Of a stretch of 64,000 nucleotides of DNA, positions 39,174-56,531 are shown piece after piece. The stretch comes from Ulvibacter algarum (GTDB taxonomy: Bacteria > Bacteroidota > Bacteroidia > Flavobacteriales > Flavobacteriaceae): assembly GCA_947488905.1 (NCBI GenBank), contig CANLBJ010000001.1, positions 558,001 to 622,000 on the forward strand, given 5' to 3'. The position numbers and the translations under genes are program-made. Numbering within the stretch: the stretch's first letter is position 1; the number at the start of each line of letters is the position of its first letter. The notes beneath the pieces were generated by a model that was not told where the DNA came from, ran no database searches, and saw only the letters and a program-made list of their open reading frames with translations.

Positions 39174-40235
39174 TTATTCCTCTCTTAAAAAAGGGTTTTC
39201 ATTCTTATAATTTCTTATTATAAAATCTAGTGTACTGTCTAAAATTTGCCCCATATTTCTAGATTTTTTAAAATTGATATCACCAGTTAACTCAAGTAGT
39301 GCATCTTTAAGTTCTTTTACTTTTTCAGGTTGAGAGATATGATCTTTTCGCATACAAACGATAAGTTGTTTGAGACGTTTTTTAGCACTGGTAGCTCTTT
39401 TTGCAAGTAAAGAACGTTCTTCCCTTTTATATTGATCAATAGATGCTTGTTTTAATTCTGATGTAACCAGATCAACAAAAACATTATTTTCTTTTAAAAA
39501 TTGTGGTCGGTACACTTTTATATTCCCTTCATAGCTTTGTTGATCAAAATCTATGGCGCGTATTCTATACTGGATTCTGTCAAAATCATTAATTAAAACC
39601 ATTACATAATTATAAGAACGCATATCACCAAGTAGCCTAATAAAACAGCGTTCATTAAACTTTACAAACTCTTTTGCAATCTCACGCTTGTCTTGTTCAG
39701 AACAGTTATCTAGGTGGTATTTAATAAAATCGTCCCCTGGTATTCCAGAAATATGCTCTTCAATCAACGTGTTTCCGTGAACTAAAAAATTGATGTGGTT
39801 AGGTGACAATAGGTGTTCTAGTTCTAACCCATAAATACGTGATGCATCTGCTTTTTTAATGTACAGAAATATGTAATTATCATTTAGAATGTTTCTTACC
39901 TTAATTCTAAAAGGTTTACTGTTTCCGAAGGTACAATAGTCAATGCTGTCAATATTTAGATAGGGTAAAAGCGCATCAGAGCCATCACTATGTAGTATAG
40001 AGTACATTTGTTTTAAGCTCAACTCAATATCTTTTCTTTCAGACTCAGAGTAATATACTTGAATCCATAAAGAGTCGTTGCCGTGTTTGTCATAAACCGT
40101 TATAGAGCCTTGATATCTTAGCAGGTCATCATAATAAATAGGGATTTTTATGTTGCGTGCATATTTTGATAAGTAGGTAGATAAAGCTTCCGTGATAGGA
40201 TACGTAGGCTTTTTCTTTGACATTAATTTTTGCAT
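39174..40235 (-). CDS. Uncharacterised protein with kinase-like (APH/protein kinase fold) motifs
   Basis: Cytosolic protein of 353 residues with no signal or membrane segment, not a recognised family. Several motifs match the kinase-like fold: a lysine-bearing strand IFLYIKK (about 122-128), TLIEEHISGIPGDDF (157-170) like the hinge region, GDMRSYNYVMVL (203-214) like the HGDxHxxN catalytic loop, and RAIDFDQQ (226-233) like the metal-binding DFD/IDxE. The C-terminal 100 residues are basic and helical. A shorter start at 40223 (MSKKKPTYPITEAL) is possible. It lies upstream of pyc in the same direction, but pyc has its own promoter. Confidence 0.6.
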   Translation of the reverse strand: MQKLMSKKKPTYPITEALSTYLSKYARNIKIPIYYDDLLRYQGSITVYDKHGNDSLWIQVYYSESERKDIELSLKQMYSILHSDGSDALLPYLNIDSIDYCTFGNSKPFRIKVRNILNDNYIFLYIKKADASRIYGLELEHLLSPNHINFLVHGNTLIEEHISGIPGDDFIKYHLDNCSEQDKREIAKEFVKFNERCFIRLLGDMRSYNYVMVLINDFDRIQYRIRAIDFDQQSYEGNIKVYRPQFLKENNVFVDLVTSELKQASIDQYKREERSLLAKRATSAKKRLKQLIVCMRKDHISQPEKVKELKDALLELTGDINFKKSRNMGQILDSTLDFIIRNYKNENPFLREE

Positions 40236-40437: not shown

Positions 40438-41532
40438 TTAATTTTTAATCACCTTGATTATCTCATCATTAATACGAACGTGATAGATGCCTTTAGAAAA
40501 AGCAGATAGGTCTATTTGTTTTGTATAACCAGTAAGTGCTCCTTTAAGTACCAATTGGCCTATTGAGGAGTATACTTTATAATTTACATCACTTAGCGTA
40601 TTTATGTTAATGATGCTTTTTGTAGGATTAGGGAAAATACTGACGTCATATTTATTTTCTTCAAGACCAAGTAACTCACACTCAAAGCTAGATTGCACCA
40701 TTGAAGCTGCAGGCGGATTGTCTAAAAGATTGTCTGTTAAAAGCGGACAATAACAGTCGTTTTCTTCAACATATAATTTGAGCCAAGAAAGCGCTAATTT
40801 CCCAGCTACTCCATTACCTCCATTAGGGGTGTTTGCAACAGAATGATTTCCGTTTTCAAATTCAAAAAGTAGTTTGTTGGTTGTTTCTGGTGTTGCGTTG
40901 TAATGCAAATTTGCGTGTTGTGCAGGTGGAGCTGTAGGGTCATTTTGACCACTAAAAATTAATACGGGACTGTCGTGGTCTAGTTCTGCATTTGTTAACC
41001 ACGGGCATAAGGCAACCACTCCTTTTATTGTATTATCGAGTACTGCAGCACGCTGAGCGCCACCGCCGCCCATAGACCATCCACTCACAGCAAATTTGTC
41101 AATGTCTAAAGCTCCTTCAAGTGGAGAGTCTGCTCTTTCATTTTCTTGACGCAATGTTTCTAATGCATCTATGAGTGCAACTCCTCTTGCTTCTGGAAAA
41201 TCAAAAAGAGAATTGGTTCCAATAATAATAGTTACTATCCCGTGAGAAGCATAAAATGGTCCCCACTCTTCTACACTATCTTGCTCGGCTGTAAATCCTG
41301 GAACAATTGCAATGCTTGAGTAAGGAGGCGTCCCATTTGTAGGGTAATAAACAGTTGCCCCAAAATAATCTGGGCCATCTCTTAACCCATCATCTTCTGT
41401 CATTGTTGCAACCTCAAAAGGTCCTGGGTTTGTTAAGTTTGCTTCTGTTACACCTTCACATTGAGCAACTATTACAGCTGGCGTTGTCAGAGTTAATAAT
41501 AAGAGTAGCGCTAATGAGTATAGTTTTTTCAT
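40438..41532 (-). CDS. T9SS-secreted polyester hydrolase/cutinase-like protein (PETase family, Bacteroidota type)
   Basis: Secreted protein of 364 residues: signal peptide, alpha/beta hydrolase (about 35-265), and T9SS sorting domain (about 296-364, IFPNPTKS to KVIKN). The hydrolase aligns by eye with IsPETase and cutinases: GPFEV, ATVYYPTNG, IAIVPGFTAEQ, EEWGPFYASHGIV, the elbow GWSMGGGG with Ser153, the subsite Trp178 in CPWLTN, Asp198 in FSGQNDPTAPP and His230 in NGNHSVANT. The oxyanion Tyr of IsPETase is Phe80. The cysteines forming the second IsPETase disulphide are Ser194 and Val232. This layout matches the Bacteroidota PET-active esterases PET27 and PET30. Natural substrate is unknown, probably polyesters or esters outside the cell. 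Confidence 0.85.
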   Translation of the reverse strand: MKKLYSLALLLLLTLTTPAVIVAQCEGVTEANLTNPGPFEVATMTEDDGLRDGPDYFGATVYYPTNGTPPYSSIAIVPGFTAEQDSVEEWGPFYASHGIVTIIIGTNSLFDFPEARGVALIDALETLRQENERADSPLEGALDIDKFAVSGWSMGGGGAQRAAVLDNTIKGVVALCPWLTNAELDHDSPVLIFSGQNDPTAPPAQHANLHYNATPETTNKLLFEFENGNHSVANTPNGGNGVAGKLALSWLKLYVEENDCYCPLLTDNLLDNPPAASMVQSSFECELLGLEENKYDVSIFPNPTKSIININTLSDVNYKVYSSIGQLVLKGALTGYTKQIDLSAFSKGIYHVRINDEIIKVIKN

Positions 41533-44630: not shown

Positions 44631-45587
44631 ATGAACAACACATATACCATTGCCATACATGGCGGCGCAGGAACCCTAGTAAAAGGTTTAATGACAGAAG
44701 CCCTAGAGGCAAAATATAAAGAAGCACTCCAGGCTGCCTTAGACGCAGGGTCAAAAGTACTTGAAAATAAAGGTACAGCAATTGACGCTGTAGAAGCTGC
44801 AGTTATAGTGCTAGAAGATTCACCATTATTTAATGCTGGTAAAGGTTCTGTTTTTACAAATACAGGAACACACGAAATGGATGCCTCAATTATGGATGGT
44901 AAAAACCTTGAAGCTGGTGGAGTATCTCTTATAACAGGAGTTAAAAACCCAGTTTCTTTATCTCGTGATATTATGGAAAAAAGTGATCACGTTTTCTTAG
45001 CTGGAGAAGGAGCGATGAAGTTTGCAGCAAGCCAAGGAACTAAACTTGAAGATGAAGCTTATTTTTATGATGAGTTACGTTATCAACAATGGCAACATAT
45101 AAAAGGAAGTGACACATTTCAGTTAGATCACGCTTCTGCTACACCTAAAGACAAAATAAAGAAAGATGGCAAATTTGGTACTGTAGGCGCAGTAGCTTTA
45201 GACATGCACGGTAACATTGCCGCTGCAACATCTACGGGTGGGATGACTAATAAAAAATGGGGTAGAGTAGGTGATAGCCCAATGATAGGAGCAGGAACGT
45301 ATGCAAATAATGAAACCTGCGCAGTTAGCTGTACTGGAAGTGGTGAGTTTTTTATTCGTGGTGTAGTAGCCTATGATGTAAGTTGCTTGATGGAATACAA
45401 AGGGCTCTCACTAGAAGAAGCTGCAAAAGAGGTAATACAAAATCGTATTTTAAAAATAGGAGGCGATGGTGGTCTTATTGCTGTAGATGCAAAAGGAAAC
45501 ATCACGATGCCTTTTAACACAGAAGGAATGTATCGTGCATTTAAAAAATCTAACGGAGATACAATGGTGTCTATTTATAAAGAGTAA
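44631..45587 (+). CDS. iaaA: Isoaspartyl peptidase/L-asparaginase (plant-type Ntn hydrolase)
   Basis: Ntn hydrolase of 318 residues that is made as one chain and self-cleaves. IAIHGGAGTL opens the protein, and KFGTVGAVALDMHGNIAAATSTGG gives the cleavage before the Thr nucleophile (in GKFGTVGAVA); GDSPMIGAGTYA follows. There is no signal peptide, so it is cytosolic. Family members cleave beta-aspartyl dipeptides, including beta-Asp-Arg from cyanophycin. Its place beside cyanophycinase and cyanophycin synthetase makes the last step of cyanophycin breakdown the likely role. An extended dispersed motif (44612-44626) is in its leader. Confidence 0.93.
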   Translation: MNNTYTIAIHGGAGTLVKGLMTEALEAKYKEALQAALDAGSKVLENKGTAIDAVEAAVIVLEDSPLFNAGKGSVFTNTGTHEMDASIMDGKNLEAGGVSLITGVKNPVSLSRDIMEKSDHVFLAGEGAMKFAASQGTKLEDEAYFYDELRYQQWQHIKGSDTFQLDHASATPKDKIKKDGKFGTVGAVALDMHGNIAAATSTGGMTNKKWGRVGDSPMIGAGTYANNETCAVSCTGSGEFFIRGVVAYDVSCLMEYKGLSLEEAAKEVIQNRILKIGGDGGLIAVDAKGNITMPFNTEGMYRAFKKSNGDTMVSIYKE

Positions 45588-45603
45588 TTAAAACACATAA
45601 ATT

Positions 45604-45647
45604 TGATTCAATAAAAAAGCGCCATATGGCGCTTTTTTATTGAATCA
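45604..45647. terminator. 44-bp perfect palindromic bidirectional terminator
   Basis: TGATTCAATAAAAAAGCGCCAT (45604-45625) is followed directly by its exact reverse complement to 45647. Folded RNA has a GCGC stem with A/T tracts on each side, serving both convergent genes. Confidence 0.85.
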
Positions 45648-45675
45648 TTTAGAAATTTAAATTTCCTTGTGTATT

Positions 45676-46542
45676 TTATATTTGTACAGAAGTAACAGGC
45701 AAAGCTAAGGGGCTTACCTTTACTTTTTTCTTCTTAATGTTAAAACGATCACCGCTAGCAAGTATGTGAGTTTTTAGGTTTACTAAAGACATCGCCGTAC
45801 CCTCTTCTAATAATGCGTGATTATTGTGTCTTGCTTTTCTAGCATTAAAAAGAATAACCATTCCTGATCCTAGAACTTCAAATTTTCCATTTTTAATTAT
45901 AAGTCCAGTATCTTCTGCAAGACCTACACCTATTAATTTTGGGAATCTAGCCACAGCTTCAGCCATACGACCAAAACGGCCACGGCGAATAAAGTGACTA
46001 TCAATTATTAATTCTGGAATAAAACTCATCCCTCTATCCATACCTACTGCACCTTTAATAAAAGATTCTTGGCTACTACCGCCAGTAATCATCTCGTGAC
46101 TCATGCACATGGCACCAGCACTTGTACCAGCAATTACAAATTCTTCTTCTTTGTAACGTTTAAGCATTATATCATGCAATGTTGTTCCACCTATTTTCTT
46201 AGTGATTTTAGATTGATCTCCACCAGAAAACATAACACAATTTGCTGTTTTCATTCGCTCTATATAATCCTTTTTATCAGAGTCTTCACGTGTTCTAATA
46301 TCAAGTACAAATAGATTTTTACAACCTAGTTTACCAAAAGCATCTAGGTAGTTTTCACCCACTTCTTCTGGTATGCTAGAAGCAGTAGGGACAATTAATA
46401 TTTCTGCATCTACACCGCCAGCTTCTTTTACAACTCTAGCAAGTATGCCTTCTTCTATAAACTCAAGCGTGTGCATTTCGCTGGTTTCTACTCCTTTATC
46501 TTCGTTTCCGCCTATTGGGATTAAAGTTCCTTTTGCCTTCAT
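45676..46542 (-). CDS. cphB: Cyanophycinase
   Basis: Serine peptidase (S51 type) of 288 residues from ATG at 46542; the N terminus MKAKGTLIPIGGNEDKG fits the family, while the upstream ATG at 46581 would add unrelated residues. Catalytic Ser is in IAGTSAGAMCMS; CVMFSGGDQSKI and GVGLAEDTGLII are also conserved. It has no signal peptide, so it acts inside the cell on stored polymer, cutting cyanophycin to beta-Asp-Arg dipeptides. Divergent from cphA with a 199-base spacer, and convergent with the isoaspartyl peptidase gene. Confidence 0.95.
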   Translation of the reverse strand: MKAKGTLIPIGGNEDKGVETSEMHTLEFIEEGILARVVKEAGGVDAEILIVPTASSIPEEVGENYLDAFGKLGCKNLFVLDIRTREDSDKKDYIERMKTANCVMFSGGDQSKITKKIGGTTLHDIMLKRYKEEEFVIAGTSAGAMCMSHEMITGGSSQESFIKGAVGMDRGMSFIPELIIDSHFIRRGRFGRMAEAVARFPKLIGVGLAEDTGLIIKNGKFEVLGSGMVILFNARKARHNNHALLEEGTAMSLVNLKTHILASGDRFNIKKKKVKVSPLALPVTSVQI

Positions 46543-46741
46543 TTTTTTCTGAAATATTATATGTGTGCAAAAATACACCAATTAATATCCAAAAGTGATA
46601 TATTTATGGATTGTTCAGAATGAATTTTATTGCAAAAACGAGCTATAAGTCTAAGGTAAAGAGACGTATTATTAGCGATATGAAATTGAAAAGTTTATTT
46701 ATACCATGAAATAAAACAAACAAACACTAAACCAACGCATT

Positions 46742-49384
46742 ATGAGAATACGCGAAATCAACGCAATGAGAGGACCTAATTATTGGTCTGTGAGAAGGCA
46801 TAAACTAATAGTTATGGTTCTCGACTTAGAGAAAATGGAAGAATCACCCTCAGATAAAATTCCTGGTTTTGCAGAACGACTACAAAAAATGTTCCCCACA
46901 ATGTATAGCCACAGGTGTAGTGTAGGTTCTCCCGGTGGTTTTTTTAAGAGAGTTGATGAAGGGACTTGGATGGGTCATATTATAGAGCACATTGCGCTAG
47001 AAATACAGACACTTGCAGGTATGGATACTGGTTTTGGGAGAACCCGAGATTATGGCGAGCACGGTGTTTATAATGTGGTTTTCTCATATATGGAAGAGAG
47101 TGTAGGGCGTTATGCCGCAAAAGCGGCTGTAGCAATATGCGAAGCATTAATTGTTGGTGAGACTTATGATCTTGAAGTTGATATTCAAGAAATGCGTGAA
47201 CTAAGAGAGTCTTCTCGTTTAGGCCCAAGTACTGGTAGTATTGTAGAAGAAGCAGAAAGCAGAGGAATCCCGTGGATACGATTAAACAAATATTCTTTAT
47301 GTCAATTAGGTTATGGTGCAAACCAAAAAAGAATACAAGCCACAGTAACTTCAGAAACTTCAAGTATAGGGGTCGAGTTGGCTTGTGATAAAGAAGACAC
47401 AAAATACTTATTAGAGCAGGCAGAAATTGATGTACCTCGCGGAGACATTATTAGAAGAGAAAGAAGTCTAGAAGAAGCATGTCGTTATGTAGGTTTTCCA
47501 CTTGTAATTAAACCTGTAGATGGCAATCATGGAAGAGGTATTACTGTAGATATTCAAAATCTTGATGATGCGCTTGTAGCATTTAAACACGCAAAAGATA
47601 GTTCTAGAAGTGGGGCTATTATTGTTGAAAAATTTATTGTTGGTGAAGATTACAGATTATTAGTAATTAATAATAAACTAGTCGCAGGTGCAGTACGTAC
47701 ACCAGCTCACGTAATAGGAGATGGGACATCTACCGTGCAAGAATTAATAGACAAAGTAAATAGCGATCCTCGTCGTGGTTTTGGTCATGAAAATGTATTG
47801 ACAAAAATCACTACAAACGAGTTAACCTTAACTATTATAAAAGACGCTGGTTACAGTTTAGATTCTGTAATTAATAAAGGAGAAAGGCTAATATTAAAAG
47901 ATACCGCAAACTTAAGTACCGGTGGTACAGCAGAAGATATTACAGATATTATTCACCCTGCAAATGTGAGCATGGTAGAGCGTATCTCAAAAATAATTGA
48001 TCTTGATATTTGTGGTATTGATATAATGACTACAGATATTAGCAAACCACTTTCTGAAACAGGTGGTGCTGTTCTAGAAGTAAACGCAGGGCCAGGATTT
48101 AGAATGCATTTAGCGCCTACAATAGGGCTGCCTCGCAACGTAGCAGCACCAGTAATAGATAAGCTATTTCCGAAGCAAGGAGATACAGGACGCATACCTA
48201 TCACTGCAATAACGGGAACAAATGGTAAGACAACCACTAGTAGATTGATTGCTCATATGGCAAAAATGAAAGGATATCGTGTGGGTTATACCACGAGTGA
48301 TGGGGTTTATATTCAGAACAGATTATTAATGACGGGTGATTGTACTGGGCCAGCAAGTGCAGAGTTTGTACTAAGAGATCCAACGGTAAACTTTGCCGTT
48401 TTAGAATGTGCTCGAGGTGGATTGTTAAGAGCTGGATTAGGTTTTAAAAACTGTGATGTTGCGGTTGTGACTAATGTGGCTGCAGATCATTTAGGTTTAA
48501 AAGGAATACACACTATTGAGCAACTAGCACGTGTAAAAGCAGTAATACCAGAAACAGTACTACCAGATGGTACAGCTGTTTTAAATGCAGATGATGAGCT
48601 AGTTTATGATATGCGACGTAATTTAAATTGTAATGTAGCGCTGTTTTCTATGGATGAAAACAACACTCATATACAAGCAATGCAGCGCAAAGGAGGTATC
48701 ACCGCTGTTTATGAAAACGGATATGTAACAATTTGCAAAGGCCAATGGAAAATGCGTGTAATGAAAGCAGAGCATATACCATTAACCTATGGTGGGAAAG
48801 CAGATTTTATGATTCAAAATGTATTAGCGGCTGTGATAGTAGCGCATGTACATGGTATTCATATAGAAGATATGAAGATGGCGCTTGAAACTTTTATACC
48901 AAGTGCTGCACAAACTCCAGGAAGATTAAATCTTTTTAAGTTCCAAAACTTTAGCATCCTATTAGATTATGCTCATAATCCAGCAGGAATGACAGCGTTA
49001 AAAGGCTTCTCAGACAAACTTGATGCGACTCATAAGGTTTGCATTATTGCAGGTATAGGTGACAGGAGAGAAGAAGATAATAATATGATAGGTAGTATCG
49101 CTGCAGACATGGCAGACGAAATTATAATACGTCAAGATAAAAGACTGCGCGGTAAGACTGAAGAAGAGCTAATAGCAATGCTAGAAGTAGGAATAAAAAG
49201 GACAGACCCAAATATTAAAACTACTGTAATACCAAGCGAAAAAGAAGCAATAACCCACGCTGTAAACACTGCAAAAAAAGGATCATTAATTATCTTATGT
49301 AGTGATGTAGTGCCAGATGCATTAGCATTAGTGCAAAAATTTAAAGCCCAGGAAGCTAGTGGCGAATTGACGTTTGCTGAGTAA
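46742..49384 (+). CDS. cphA: Cyanophycin synthetase
   Basis: Enzyme of 880 residues that builds multi-L-arginyl-poly-L-aspartate without ribosomes. It has an N-terminal domain (RGPNYWSVRRHKLIVMVLDL), an ATP-grasp domain that adds Asp (VIKPVDGNHGRGITVDI, LEVNAGPGFRMHL), and a Mur-ligase-like domain that adds Arg (ITAITGTNGKTTTSRLIAHM, LDYAHNPAGM). Length and motifs are those of CphA1. The polymer stores nitrogen and carbon. All three genes for making and using the polymer are here, so the cycle is complete in principle. Confidence 0.97.
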   Translation: MRIREINAMRGPNYWSVRRHKLIVMVLDLEKMEESPSDKIPGFAERLQKMFPTMYSHRCSVGSPGGFFKRVDEGTWMGHIIEHIALEIQTLAGMDTGFGRTRDYGEHGVYNVVFSYMEESVGRYAAKAAVAICEALIVGETYDLEVDIQEMRELRESSRLGPSTGSIVEEAESRGIPWIRLNKYSLCQLGYGANQKRIQATVTSETSSIGVELACDKEDTKYLLEQAEIDVPRGDIIRRERSLEEACRYVGFPLVIKPVDGNHGRGITVDIQNLDDALVAFKHAKDSSRSGAIIVEKFIVGEDYRLLVINNKLVAGAVRTPAHVIGDGTSTVQELIDKVNSDPRRGFGHENVLTKITTNELTLTIIKDAGYSLDSVINKGERLILKDTANLSTGGTAEDITDIIHPANVSMVERISKIIDLDICGIDIMTTDISKPLSETGGAVLEVNAGPGFRMHLAPTIGLPRNVAAPVIDKLFPKQGDTGRIPITAITGTNGKTTTSRLIAHMAKMKGYRVGYTTSDGVYIQNRLLMTGDCTGPASAEFVLRDPTVNFAVLECARGGLLRAGLGFKNCDVAVVTNVAADHLGLKGIHTIEQLARVKAVIPETVLPDGTAVLNADDELVYDMRRNLNCNVALFSMDENNTHIQAMQRKGGITAVYENGYVTICKGQWKMRVMKAEHIPLTYGGKADFMIQNVLAAVIVAHVHGIHIEDMKMALETFIPSAAQTPGRLNLFKFQNFSILLDYAHNPAGMTALKGFSDKLDATHKVCIIAGIGDRREEDNNMIGSIAADMADEIIIRQDKRLRGKTEEELIAMLEVGIKRTDPNIKTTVIPSEKEAITHAVNTAKKGSLIILCSDVVPDALALVQKFKAQEASGELTFAE

Positions 49385-52559: not shown

Positions 52560-55490
52560 ATGATGAGATTTACTGCTTTACTAATATTTATGGCGTTATT
52601 AATAAGCTGTAACGATATAGAAAAACAGCATATTTCAGAAACAAATATACCGCTCACCAGCTACGTAAATACATTTGTAGGTACAGGTGGTCATGGTCAT
52701 ACCTATCCTGGGGCGACTATGCCTTTTGGGATGATGCAGTTGAGCCCAGACACACGTCTTGATGGGTGGGATGGTTGTAGCGGGTATCATTATAGTGATG
52801 ATACTATTTATGGTTTTAGCCATACACATTTAAGTGGTACAGGTGTAAGTGATTATGGTGATGTTTTAATAATGCCAACTAATAATATTGTCTTTAATAA
52901 TGGTGCTGATGGTAAGGAGGGTTACAGATCAAAATTCTCGCACGATAATGAAGAGGCTTCACCAGGATATTATAAAGTACATCTTGATGACACTAATATT
53001 GACGTTGCACTTACGGTTACAGAGCGAGCAGGAATGCATGAGTATAAATATCCCTCTGCAGAGAATCAAATAGCAATAATAGATTTACTACATCGTGATA
53101 AAACGCTAGATGCAAAAATAGAAGTAGTTTCTAAAAACGAAATTCAAGGTTATCGTTTTAGTGAAGCATGGGCAACAGATCAACGTCTTTTTTTTAGTAT
53201 TAAAACATCACATCCATTTAATGATATGTTGCAATCTCCACCTATTAAAGGAGCGTCTGGAGCTCAAAAAATTGCTTTAAGTTTTATAAACCCTAATAAT
53301 GAACCTGTCTATGTTTCTGTGGGTATTTCTGCTGTAGATATAACTGGTGCAAAGAAAAATAGAGAGGTAGAGTTGGGTGATAAAACCTTTACTCAATTAA
53401 AAAAAGAAGCCGCTTTACAATGGGAGCATCAGCTTAATAAAATTGTAATAGAAGACTCTTCAGAAAACAATAAACACGTTTTTTACTCTGCGTTATATCA
53501 CACCATGTTAGCTCCTAATCTCTATCAAGATGTAGATGGCAGGTATCGCGGGATGGATATGGAGATCCATCAAACTAAAGACTTTGATTATTATACCGTG
53601 TTTTCTTTATGGGATACCTACAGAGCAGCACACCCTTTATATACTATTATTGAGCAAAAACGCACCAATGATTTTGTGAACACCATGCTCGCTAAATATC
53701 AAGAAGGTGGTATCATCCCTATTTGGGATTTATCTGCAAATTATACGGGTTGTATGATAGGGTATCACGGTGTGCCTGTAATTGCAGATGCTTATTTAAA
53801 AGGCATTGTTGATTATGACACAGAGCTAGCTTTTAAAGCCATAAAACATAGTGCAATGCAAGATAAGCTAGGTCTCAAAGCATACAAAAATCAAGGCTTT
53901 ATACCCATGGAAGAAGAGAGCGAAAGTGTGTCTAAAACTTTAGAATATGCTTATGATGATTGGACCATTGCGCAAATGGCAAAAGCAATGGGTAAAACGG
54001 AAGATTATATATTATTTACAGAAAGAGCACAGTATTATAAAAATGTGTTTAATCCAGAAACTGGTTTTATGCAAGGAAGATTTAATAATACTTGGTTTGG
54101 TCCTTTTGATCCTTATGAGGTTAATTTTAACTACACAGAGGCAAACGCATGGCAGTATAGTTTATACGCCCCTCATGATATTTCTGGATTAACAAAAATG
54201 ATGGGTGGTAAACAAAAACTAGAATCACATTTAGATAACTTGTTTAGTGCAGAAGCAAAAACTTCTGGAAGGGACCAAGCAGATATTACAGGTTTAATAG
54301 GCCAGTACGCTCACGGAAACGAGCCAAGCCATCACATGGCGTATCTCTACAATTTTGTAAACAAGCCGGCAAAAACACAAAAGTTAGTTCGTGAGATTTT
54401 AACAACTCTTTACACTAATGAGCCAGATGGTGTTTCTGGTAACGAAGACTGTGGTCAAATGAGCGCTTGGTATATTTTGAGTTCATTAGGTTTTTACCCT
54501 GTAACACCAGGTAGTAATGAGTATATAATAGGAGCTCCATTATTTGAAAGGGCGACTATTAATTTAGAAAACAGAAAACAGTTTGTTATAACTGCTCAGG
54601 ACATTTCCGAAGTAAATAAATACATAAAATCTGTCACCCTCAATGGTGAGCCTTTAAACAAAACGTATATCAACCATTCTGCAATTGCCAATGGTGGAGC
54701 ATTACATTTTGAGATGACAGATATACCTTCAGATTGGGGAACAAAACAAGGGCAAGAGCCAAAAACAAGTATAGATGATCATAAAATTTTACTAGCACCA
54801 TTTATTGCAGAAGGCAAAGTTGCCTTTAAAAATAATACACGTGTTCAGCTAGCTGTAGCAGATGTTTCATCAGAAATATTCTATGCAATAAACAATGGGT
54901 CATTCAAGAAGTATAGCGCCCCCTTTACTCTAGAAGAAGCAGCCACTATAAAAACATATGCCAAAAAGGAAAAGAAGAAAAGTAAAGTGCTCAAAACGAA
55001 ATTTTACAAAATAGATACTAACCTAAAATTGAAATTACACACTGAGTTTGCTAACGAGTATAATGCTGGCGGTAATGACGCACTTATAGATGGAATACGT
55101 GGAGCAAAAGATTTTAGAACGGGGGCGTGGCAAGGTTATAGCGACAACAACGTAGATGTATTATTAGATTTAGGGAGTGTAAAACAAATAAGCACTATTG
55201 AGACTAACTATTTACAAGATCAACGTAGTTGGATTTTTTACCCAACACAAGTTGAGGTATGGGTTTCAATAGATGGTAATAACTTTAAATCTATTGGGGT
55301 TAAAAATATAGATGCTTCTAATAAAGATGAAGATGTCGCAATTAAAACAATAACATTTAAAGAACCCTCTACTTCTGCTAGATATATAAAACTAGTGGCG
55401 ACTAATCTTGGTTCGGTGCCAGAGTGGCATTTAGGGCACCCTTATGACGGGAAGGCATGGATATTTATTGATGAGGTGTCAGTAAGATAA
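52560..55490 (+). CDS. GH92 alpha-mannosidase lipoprotein with C-terminal discoidin-type domain
   Basis: Lipoprotein of 976 residues (lipobox LLISC). The GH92 domain covers about 30-740: YVNTFVGTGGHGHTYPGATM, GWDGCSGYHYSD, FSHTHLSGTG, FSLWDTYRAAHPL, GNEPSHHMAYLYNF and GNEDCGQMSAWYILSSLGFYP carry the acidic catalytic residues and Ca2+ ligands of this Ca-dependent exo-mannosidase family. The last 150 residues resemble an F5/8 type C carbohydrate-binding domain (DALIDGIRGAKDFRTGAWQG, VDVLLDLGSVKQIS, SARYIKLVATN). The next gene encodes glycosylasparaginase 39 bases on, so the pair likely trims and releases N-glycans at the cell surface or periplasm. Confidence 0.95.
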   Translation: MMRFTALLIFMALLISCNDIEKQHISETNIPLTSYVNTFVGTGGHGHTYPGATMPFGMMQLSPDTRLDGWDGCSGYHYSDDTIYGFSHTHLSGTGVSDYGDVLIMPTNNIVFNNGADGKEGYRSKFSHDNEEASPGYYKVHLDDTNIDVALTVTERAGMHEYKYPSAENQIAIIDLLHRDKTLDAKIEVVSKNEIQGYRFSEAWATDQRLFFSIKTSHPFNDMLQSPPIKGASGAQKIALSFINPNNEPVYVSVGISAVDITGAKKNREVELGDKTFTQLKKEAALQWEHQLNKIVIEDSSENNKHVFYSALYHTMLAPNLYQDVDGRYRGMDMEIHQTKDFDYYTVFSLWDTYRAAHPLYTIIEQKRTNDFVNTMLAKYQEGGIIPIWDLSANYTGCMIGYHGVPVIADAYLKGIVDYDTELAFKAIKHSAMQDKLGLKAYKNQGFIPMEEESESVSKTLEYAYDDWTIAQMAKAMGKTEDYILFTERAQYYKNVFNPETGFMQGRFNNTWFGPFDPYEVNFNYTEANAWQYSLYAPHDISGLTKMMGGKQKLESHLDNLFSAEAKTSGRDQADITGLIGQYAHGNEPSHHMAYLYNFVNKPAKTQKLVREILTTLYTNEPDGVSGNEDCGQMSAWYILSSLGFYPVTPGSNEYIIGAPLFERATINLENRKQFVITAQDISEVNKYIKSVTLNGEPLNKTYINHSAIANGGALHFEMTDIPSDWGTKQGQEPKTSIDDHKILLAPFIAEGKVAFKNNTRVQLAVADVSSEIFYAINNGSFKKYSAPFTLEEAATIKTYAKKEKKKSKVLKTKFYKIDTNLKLKLHTEFANEYNAGGNDALIDGIRGAKDFRTGAWQGYSDNNVDVLLDLGSVKQISTIETNYLQDQRSWIFYPTQVEVWVSIDGNNFKSIGVKNIDASNKDEDVAIKTITFKEPSTSARYIKLVATNLGSVPEWHLGHPYDGKAWIFIDEVSVR

Positions 55491-55529
55491 TTAATGAAAG
55501 ACCTTCGCATATGCGCTGGCAATACTATA

Positions 55530-56531
55530 ATGAAAAGAAGAAAGTTTATACAAAATGCAGCCTTAGGTACTGTTGGTGCATCTACACTTGCGTCTGCGTT
55601 AGTAGCTTGTTCAGATACAGAGAAGAAAACAAAAGCAGCTGCAATTGATACACAAAACAAGAATGCCCCAGTAGTTATAGCAACTTGGGATGTAAAAGAT
55701 GCAACAGCAGCTGCGTGGCAATCACTAGAAAAAGGAAATAGCGCATTACAGGCCGTTATTGATGGTTGTGGTGTAGAAGAGGCTAACGCAGATGGGCAAT
55801 CTGTAGGCATAGGTGGATTGCCAGATCGTGATGGTCGCGTTACACTTGATGCTTGTGTGATGAACGAGCACGGTGATTATGGAGCCGTACTTTGTATGGA
55901 AAATATTAAGCACCCTATAGCTGTAGCAAAAATGGTGATGGAAGATACCCCACACGTTATTTTAGCAGGTGTAGGAGCAGAACAGTTTGCAGTCTCAAAA
56001 GGTTTTAAAAGAGAAAACCTATTAACAGAAGCGTCAAAAAGTGGATGGGAAGAATGGAAAAAAACAGCGCAATATGAGCCTATTATTAATATAGAAAATC
56101 ACGACACTATAGGTATGTTAGTGATGGATAAGAACGGGACTATTTCTGGGGGTTGTACAACAAGTGGGCTTGCTTTTAAAATGGCCGGAAGAGTAGGAGA
56201 CTCTGCGGTTATAGGTTCTGGTTTATTTGTTGATAATGAAATAGGCGCTTGTACAGCAACTGGGCTAGGGGAAGAGGTTTTAAAAACAGTGGGTAGTTAT
56301 CTAGTGGTAGAATTAATGCGACAAGGCAAATCGCCAGATCAAGCTTGCAAAGAAGCCGTGATGCGTATTGTTAACAAATCTAAAAATTATAAAAATTTTC
56401 AAGTAGGATATATAGCACTAAATAAAAAGGGAGAGACAGGGTCATATTCTATTCATGATGGGTTTGTAACCACAACCTATAAAAATGGAATTAATGAAAC
56501 AAAAAAGCCTGAGTATTTTGATAAACTTTAA
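55530..56531 (+). CDS. Glycosylasparaginase (N4-(beta-N-acetylglucosaminyl)-L-asparaginase)
   Basis: Ntn hydrolase of 333 residues from ATG at 55530. The start MKRRKFIQNAALGTVGAS is a twin-arginine signal that ends in a lipobox-like LVACS, so it is exported folded, probably as a lipoprotein; an upstream ATG at 55494 would displace the signal. The chain cleaves before the Thr nucleophile in NHDTIGMLVMD; VGIGGLPDRDGRVTLDACVM and GRVGDSAVIGSGLFVD are typical. Known flavobacterial enzymes of this family split GlcNAc-Asn, the last link of N-glycoproteins. Co-located with GH92. Confidence 0.95.
   Translation: MKRRKFIQNAALGTVGASTLASALVACSDTEKKTKAAAIDTQNKNAPVVIATWDVKDATAAAWQSLEKGNSALQAVIDGCGVEEANADGQSVGIGGLPDRDGRVTLDACVMNEHGDYGAVLCMENIKHPIAVAKMVMEDTPHVILAGVGAEQFAVSKGFKRENLLTEASKSGWEEWKKTAQYEPIINIENHDTIGMLVMDKNGTISGGCTTSGLAFKMAGRVGDSAVIGSGLFVDNEIGACTATGLGEEVLKTVGSYLVVELMRQGKSPDQACKEAVMRIVNKSKNYKNFQVGYIALNKKGETGSYSIHDGFVTTTYKNGINETKKPEYFDKL

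Follow-up and report, generated by a model that had tools for sequence, protein, structure and literature searches.

A predicted secreted esterase of the PET27/PET30 group encoded beside polA in a marine flavobacterium

The locus and its surroundings

The window, by which we mean the whole stretch of 64,000 nucleotides that was analyzed, carries an open reading frame for a protein that the first-pass annotation had described as a PETase-like hydrolase with a domain for sorting by the type IX secretion system (T9SS). Profile searches bear out both parts of this description. The PF12740 model scores 184.1 bits, its match spanning profile positions 14-245 of 263, against a curated Pfam cut-off of 28 bits, which places the protein in the PETase family, and the sorting domain at its C terminus is recognized by both a Pfam and an NCBIfam model (Table 1). 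The N terminus is a hydrophobic signal, and this is the single PF12740 gene in the genome. The terminator-like inverted repeat that directly follows the stop codon presumably serves the minus-strand esterase gene.

Table 1. Coordinates of the esterase gene and its features in the window
Feature	Position	Strand	Remarks
PET27/PET30-type esterase ORF, 364 aa	40438..41532	-	ATG start, no internal stops
Signal peptide, residues 1-23	41464..41532	-	Cleavage between A23 and Q24 by alignment with PET27-PET30 (PMC8767016, Table 3: 23-24)
PETase-family alpha/beta hydrolase domain, residues 29-267	40732..41448	-	PF12740, 4.4e-54; folds of 7pzj and IsPETase by Foldseek
Oxyanion loop PGFTAEQ, residues 78-84, with Phe80	41281..41301	-	
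Nucleophile Ser153 and oxyanion Met154, in GWSMGGGG	41071..41076	-	
Subsite Trp178	40999..41001	-	Same in PET27; Tyr in PET30
Gly195 (at IsPETase Cys203) to catalytic Asp198	40939..40950	-	
Catalytic His230, Ser231, Val232 (at IsPETase Cys239)	40837..40845	-	
Cys262...Cys285, counterpart of the sole disulfide in the PET30 crystal structure	40678..40749	-	Invariant in 19 relatives
T9SS type A C-terminal sorting domain, residues 299-362	40447..40638	-	PF18962 (Por_Secre_tail), 1e-11; TIGR04183 (NCBIfam), 1.2e-8
30-base inverted repeat, terminator-like, directly 3' of the stop codon	40379..40408		Scan lists the + strand only

The esterase gene lies directly downstream of polA, at a distance of 69 bases. 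The polA gene also adjoins the homologue in Patiriisocius marinus, in Marinirhabdus, in two uncultured Flavobacteriaceae, and in others, whereas in Aequorivita the homologue is found elsewhere. The neighbors are polA together with ribosomal and carboxylase genes, and a search of the window and the related loci for an operon partner found no consistent functional partner. A reading frame of 353 aa at 39174-40235 has no Pfam or NCBIfam match and is 83-95% identical in four related loci, where it adjoins the esterase gene.

Two further gene groups in the window deserve mention in their own right. A cyanophycin gene set adjoins polA (44631-49384) and consists of a cyanophycin synthetase (46742-49384; TIGR02068, 1232 bits), a cyanophycinase (45676-46581; TIGR02069, 220 bits), and an Asparaginase_2 protein resembling isoaspartyl dipeptidases (44631-45587). 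At loci L015, L018, L019, and L025 the genes for the cyanophycinase and the Asparaginase_2 protein likewise lie beside polA, and because of this gene set and its conserved place, the marine flavobacterium probably makes and recycles the nitrogen polymer cyanophycin. Farther along, a GH92 alpha-mannosidase (52560-55490) is followed by an Asparaginase_2-family enzyme (55494-56531), a pair possibly involved in glycoprotein degradation. At one related locus (L020), and there only, a PETase homologue sits amid glycosidase genes, with a stretch 57.6% identical to the GH92 protein of the window, a beta-hexosaminidase-like reading frame, and a GH2 mannosidase around it.

Active site and placement among relatives

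The active site was read from a MAFFT alignment of the window protein with IsPETase, LCC, PET30, and relatives, in which the IsPETase and LCC sequences had been confirmed against PDB entries. Ser153, Asp198, and His230 align with the IsPETase triad Ser160, Asp206, and His237, while Phe80, Met154, Trp152, and Trp178 take the places of Tyr87, Met161, Trp159, and Trp185, so that the triad, the phenylalanine at the oxyanion tyrosine position, and the subsite tryptophan are just as the first-pass annotation had named them. The protein thus has the Ser-Asp-His triad and the Phe-Met-(Trp/Tyr) subsite of the PET27/PET30 group. At position 206 the window protein has a histidine, as does LCC, where IsPETase has Ser214; at position 231 it shares a serine with IsPETase (Ser238), where LCC has phenylalanine.

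The annotation had also held that the second IsPETase disulfide is replaced, by Ser194 and Val232. Val232 indeed stands at Cys239, but the residue at Cys203 is Gly195, Ser194 being off by one and aligned with Ala202. The same Gly195/Val232 pair, without the active-site disulfide, is found in PET30, whose crystal structure has one disulfide, C262-C285 (PMC8767016). Both of these cysteines are present in the window protein and would be expected, by analogy with PET30, to form the same bond; C25, C176, and C260 are likewise invariant in 19 relatives. Assignment to the IsPETase-like type II PETases was considered and rejected, as Gly195 and Val232 stand where those enzymes have the Cys203-Cys239 disulfide. 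The claim that the protein follows IsPETase closely therefore stands for the active site but not for the protein as a whole, which is only 35% identical.

A far closer affinity is seen with the Bacteroidota enzymes PET27 and PET30, to which the earlier reading had also pointed. Relatives are encoded at 20 genome loci, with full-length identities of 63-78%, and these loci include those of the strains or species from which PET27 (L010), PET29 (L016), and PET28 (L022) come, paired with the proteins of PMC8767016 by organism and length. Identity to the window protein over the catalytic core is 82.0% for L010/PET27, 82.3% for L016/PET29, 73.8% for L022/PET28, 69.2% for PET30, and 35.3% for IsPETase. 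The nearest solved structure by sequence is PET30 (7pzj; residues 1-363, E 2.7e-153), and the next PDB matches, Ple629, 7cwq, Ple628, and PET44 (8otu), are weaker by about 100 orders of magnitude. An AlphaFold model, built from a 19-row alignment with a moderate mean pLDDT of 63.6, has 7pzj as its top Foldseek match (E 1.3e-29), followed by IsPETase entries, and at this confidence it adds little to the homology with 7pzj.

In the maximum-likelihood tree the window protein groups with PET27-PET30 in a clade of 31 rows (support 91/93), within which its exact place is not fixed, and IsPETase, BurPL, Ple628/629, and LCC form a separate group (94/91). The placement in an unrelated lipase or dienelactone hydrolase clade that would have told against the annotation did not occur. 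That the protein is a dienelactone hydrolase (DLH), or some other unrelated alpha/beta hydrolase, is thus very improbable: there are weak matches to DLH (0.0007, below cut-off) and to Abhydrolase_1/5, but the PETase model is more than 150 bits stronger, the tree placement is contrary, and the nucleophile here is serine, whereas that of dienelactone hydrolases is cysteine.

Other branches of the family were encountered as well. Loci L023, L047, and L051, from Ulvibacter antarcticus and relatives, have Tyr178 (CPYLT/CPYLN), as does PET30 of Kaistella jeonii, to which the motif has been described as unique; lateral transfer into Kaistella is possible. One genome of the family (L052) has a tandem pair of divergent copies, whose full-length identity to the window protein is 46-47%; one has GYSMGGGG and the other GHSLGGGG. 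Loci L056-L059, in 1.6-1.8 Mb genomes of another family of the order, encode PETase homologues with core identities of 45-50%; three of the four have the motifs PGY and GGWSMGGGG, and no characterized member of this branch was identified.

Distribution of the gene and its host

The window genome belongs to the same genus as Patiriisocius marinus (Flavobacteriaceae), because one genome of the genus is identical to the P. marinus KCTC 32322 locus over 4089 compared bases and another to an uncultured Ulvibacter MAG over 3723 bases. Within this genus the gene is present in nine of ten other species, in many cases adjoining polA, with core identities of 75-83%, and the one exception is a genome that is 59% complete. 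Across the family it was found in 10 of 299 genomes and 7 of 203 genera. An order-wide search of 296 genomes with a core-only profile gave six strong matches, that of the window included, four of which lie in small genomes of another family. With a phylum-wide full-length-alignment profile the window was the sole match among five candidates scored per genome, a ranking that sorting-domain matches may crowd.

The gene is near-universal in the genus, and its polA neighborhood is conserved in several genera, which argues that it is older than man-made plastic. In the catalytic domain dN is 0.12-0.13 and dS is above 1, near saturation, indicating purifying selection, while the sorting domain drifts faster than the catalytic domain in three of four comparisons. 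The enzyme would thus appear to be a settled feature of the lineage rather than a response to plastic.

The genome encodes the T9SS translocon protein SprA (2844 bits) and has 84 sorting-domain matches above cut-off, so a T9SS export route exists in the host. Together with the protein's own sorting domain and the genus of P. marinus, this agrees with the earlier proposal of an extracellular enzyme from a marine bacterium.

Proposed function and comparison with characterized enzymes

Our results lead us to propose, with a probability of roughly 90%, that the gene product is a secreted serine esterase belonging to the PET27/PET30 group, which would act on short- and medium-chain esters and natural polyesters and, promiscuously, on polycaprolactone (PCL), BHET, and polyester-polyurethane. 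The protein would be exported by Sec via its signal peptide and would cross the outer membrane after recognition of its C-terminal sorting domain by the T9SS. Once outside, it would cleave esters through attack of Ser153 on the carbonyl, with His230 and Asp198 as the activating residues and the main-chain amides of Phe80 and Met154 as the putative oxyanion hole, and Trp178 and Phe80 may line an open, lidless subsite that both aliphatic and aromatic acyl groups could fit.

Clearing of PCL, BHET, and Impranil is common to all four characterized close relatives (PET27-PET30), but terephthalate was set free from PET foil by just two of them, PET27 and PET30, at rates 4.7- and 253-fold below IsPETase; PET28 and PET29 are reported inactive on the foil (PMC8767016). 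PET30 subsite mutants lost activity (PMC8767016). One alternative is that the window protein is a PET hydrolase in the functional sense (EC 3.1.1.101), which would free terephthalate from amorphous PET about as fast as PET27 does. In favor of this are a core 82% identical to that of the PET27-strain protein and the shared Phe-Met-Trp subsite, T200, H206, S231, and N234, yet PET29 has the same residues. PET27 and PET29 have cores that are 95% identical, with the same residue at every subsite position compared, so it is not these residues that determine whether PET is attacked, and homology is an unsafe basis for assigning PET activity. The low rates of the active relatives also weigh against such a role, as does the genome, in which no ring-hydroxylating oxygenase alpha subunit (PF00848) was found while controls were positive. 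We therefore put a PET27-like capacity somewhat short of an even bet; weak PET hydrolysis would stand at about even odds. Given the lack of PF00848, the host is not expected to grow on terephthalate through the known dioxygenase pathway, and its use of PET monomers appears unlikely. A search for a tannase of the MHETase type gave no match in the genome of the window, and none in the control genomes either.

The protein might instead be a general extracellular lipase or esterase for natural lipids, such as tri- and diacylglycerols or wax-like or algal esters, with polyester cleavage as a laboratory side reaction. Relatives favor C6-C8 pNP esters and clear tributyrin (PMC8767016), and the genus-wide conservation and housekeeping context speak against an adaptation to plastic, although the lidless open cleft and membership in this family would, from what is generally understood of such enzymes, favor surface-bound polymeric substrates. 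We regard this as a serious contender that nevertheless has the odds against it. More speculatively, and on balance rather doubtfully, the gene may be an old, genus-wide, surface-exported polyesterase for a natural marine polyester, from whose polymer-degrading role activity on PET and PCL would be inherited. The real job of the PET27/PET30-type esterase is in any case probably the cleavage of some natural ester rather than of plastic, with natural polyesters and the lipids of algae or animals as candidate substrates.

Enzymes of this kind have already been described, and the window protein adds one more marine genus to those represented in the small group of polyester hydrolases exported by the T9SS. 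Together with PET27 and PET29, with their near-identical cores and opposite results on PET, it makes a trio for mapping determinants of PET attack outside the usual subsite residues.

PET27 (Aequorivita sp. CIP111184, WP_111881932) is alike in architecture, length (364 aa), signal peptide, triad, Phe-Met-Trp subsite, Gly195/Val232 pair, and C-terminal T9SS domain, but 18% of the core differs, the sorting domains are only about 45% identical, and the PET27 gene lies in another neighborhood, not adjoining polA. PET29 (Aequorivita vladivostokensis) and PET28 (A. viscosa), with cores 82% and 74% identical, have the same subsite motif. PET30 is homologous over its full length, sorting domain included, and shares the triad, Phe80, Gly195/Val232, and Cys262/Cys285, but has Tyr178 in place of Trp178 and a core pI of 6.6. 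IsPETase (Ideonella sakaiensis) shares the fold, the triad, and the equivalents of Trp159, Met161, Trp185, and Ser238, whereas the window protein has phenylalanine at Tyr87, His206 at Ser214, no active-site disulfide, and an additional T9SS domain. IsPETase is basic (pI 9.4), while the core of the window protein is strongly acidic (pI 4.1, slightly more so than PET27 with 4.3), a property that may suit the salinity of seawater.
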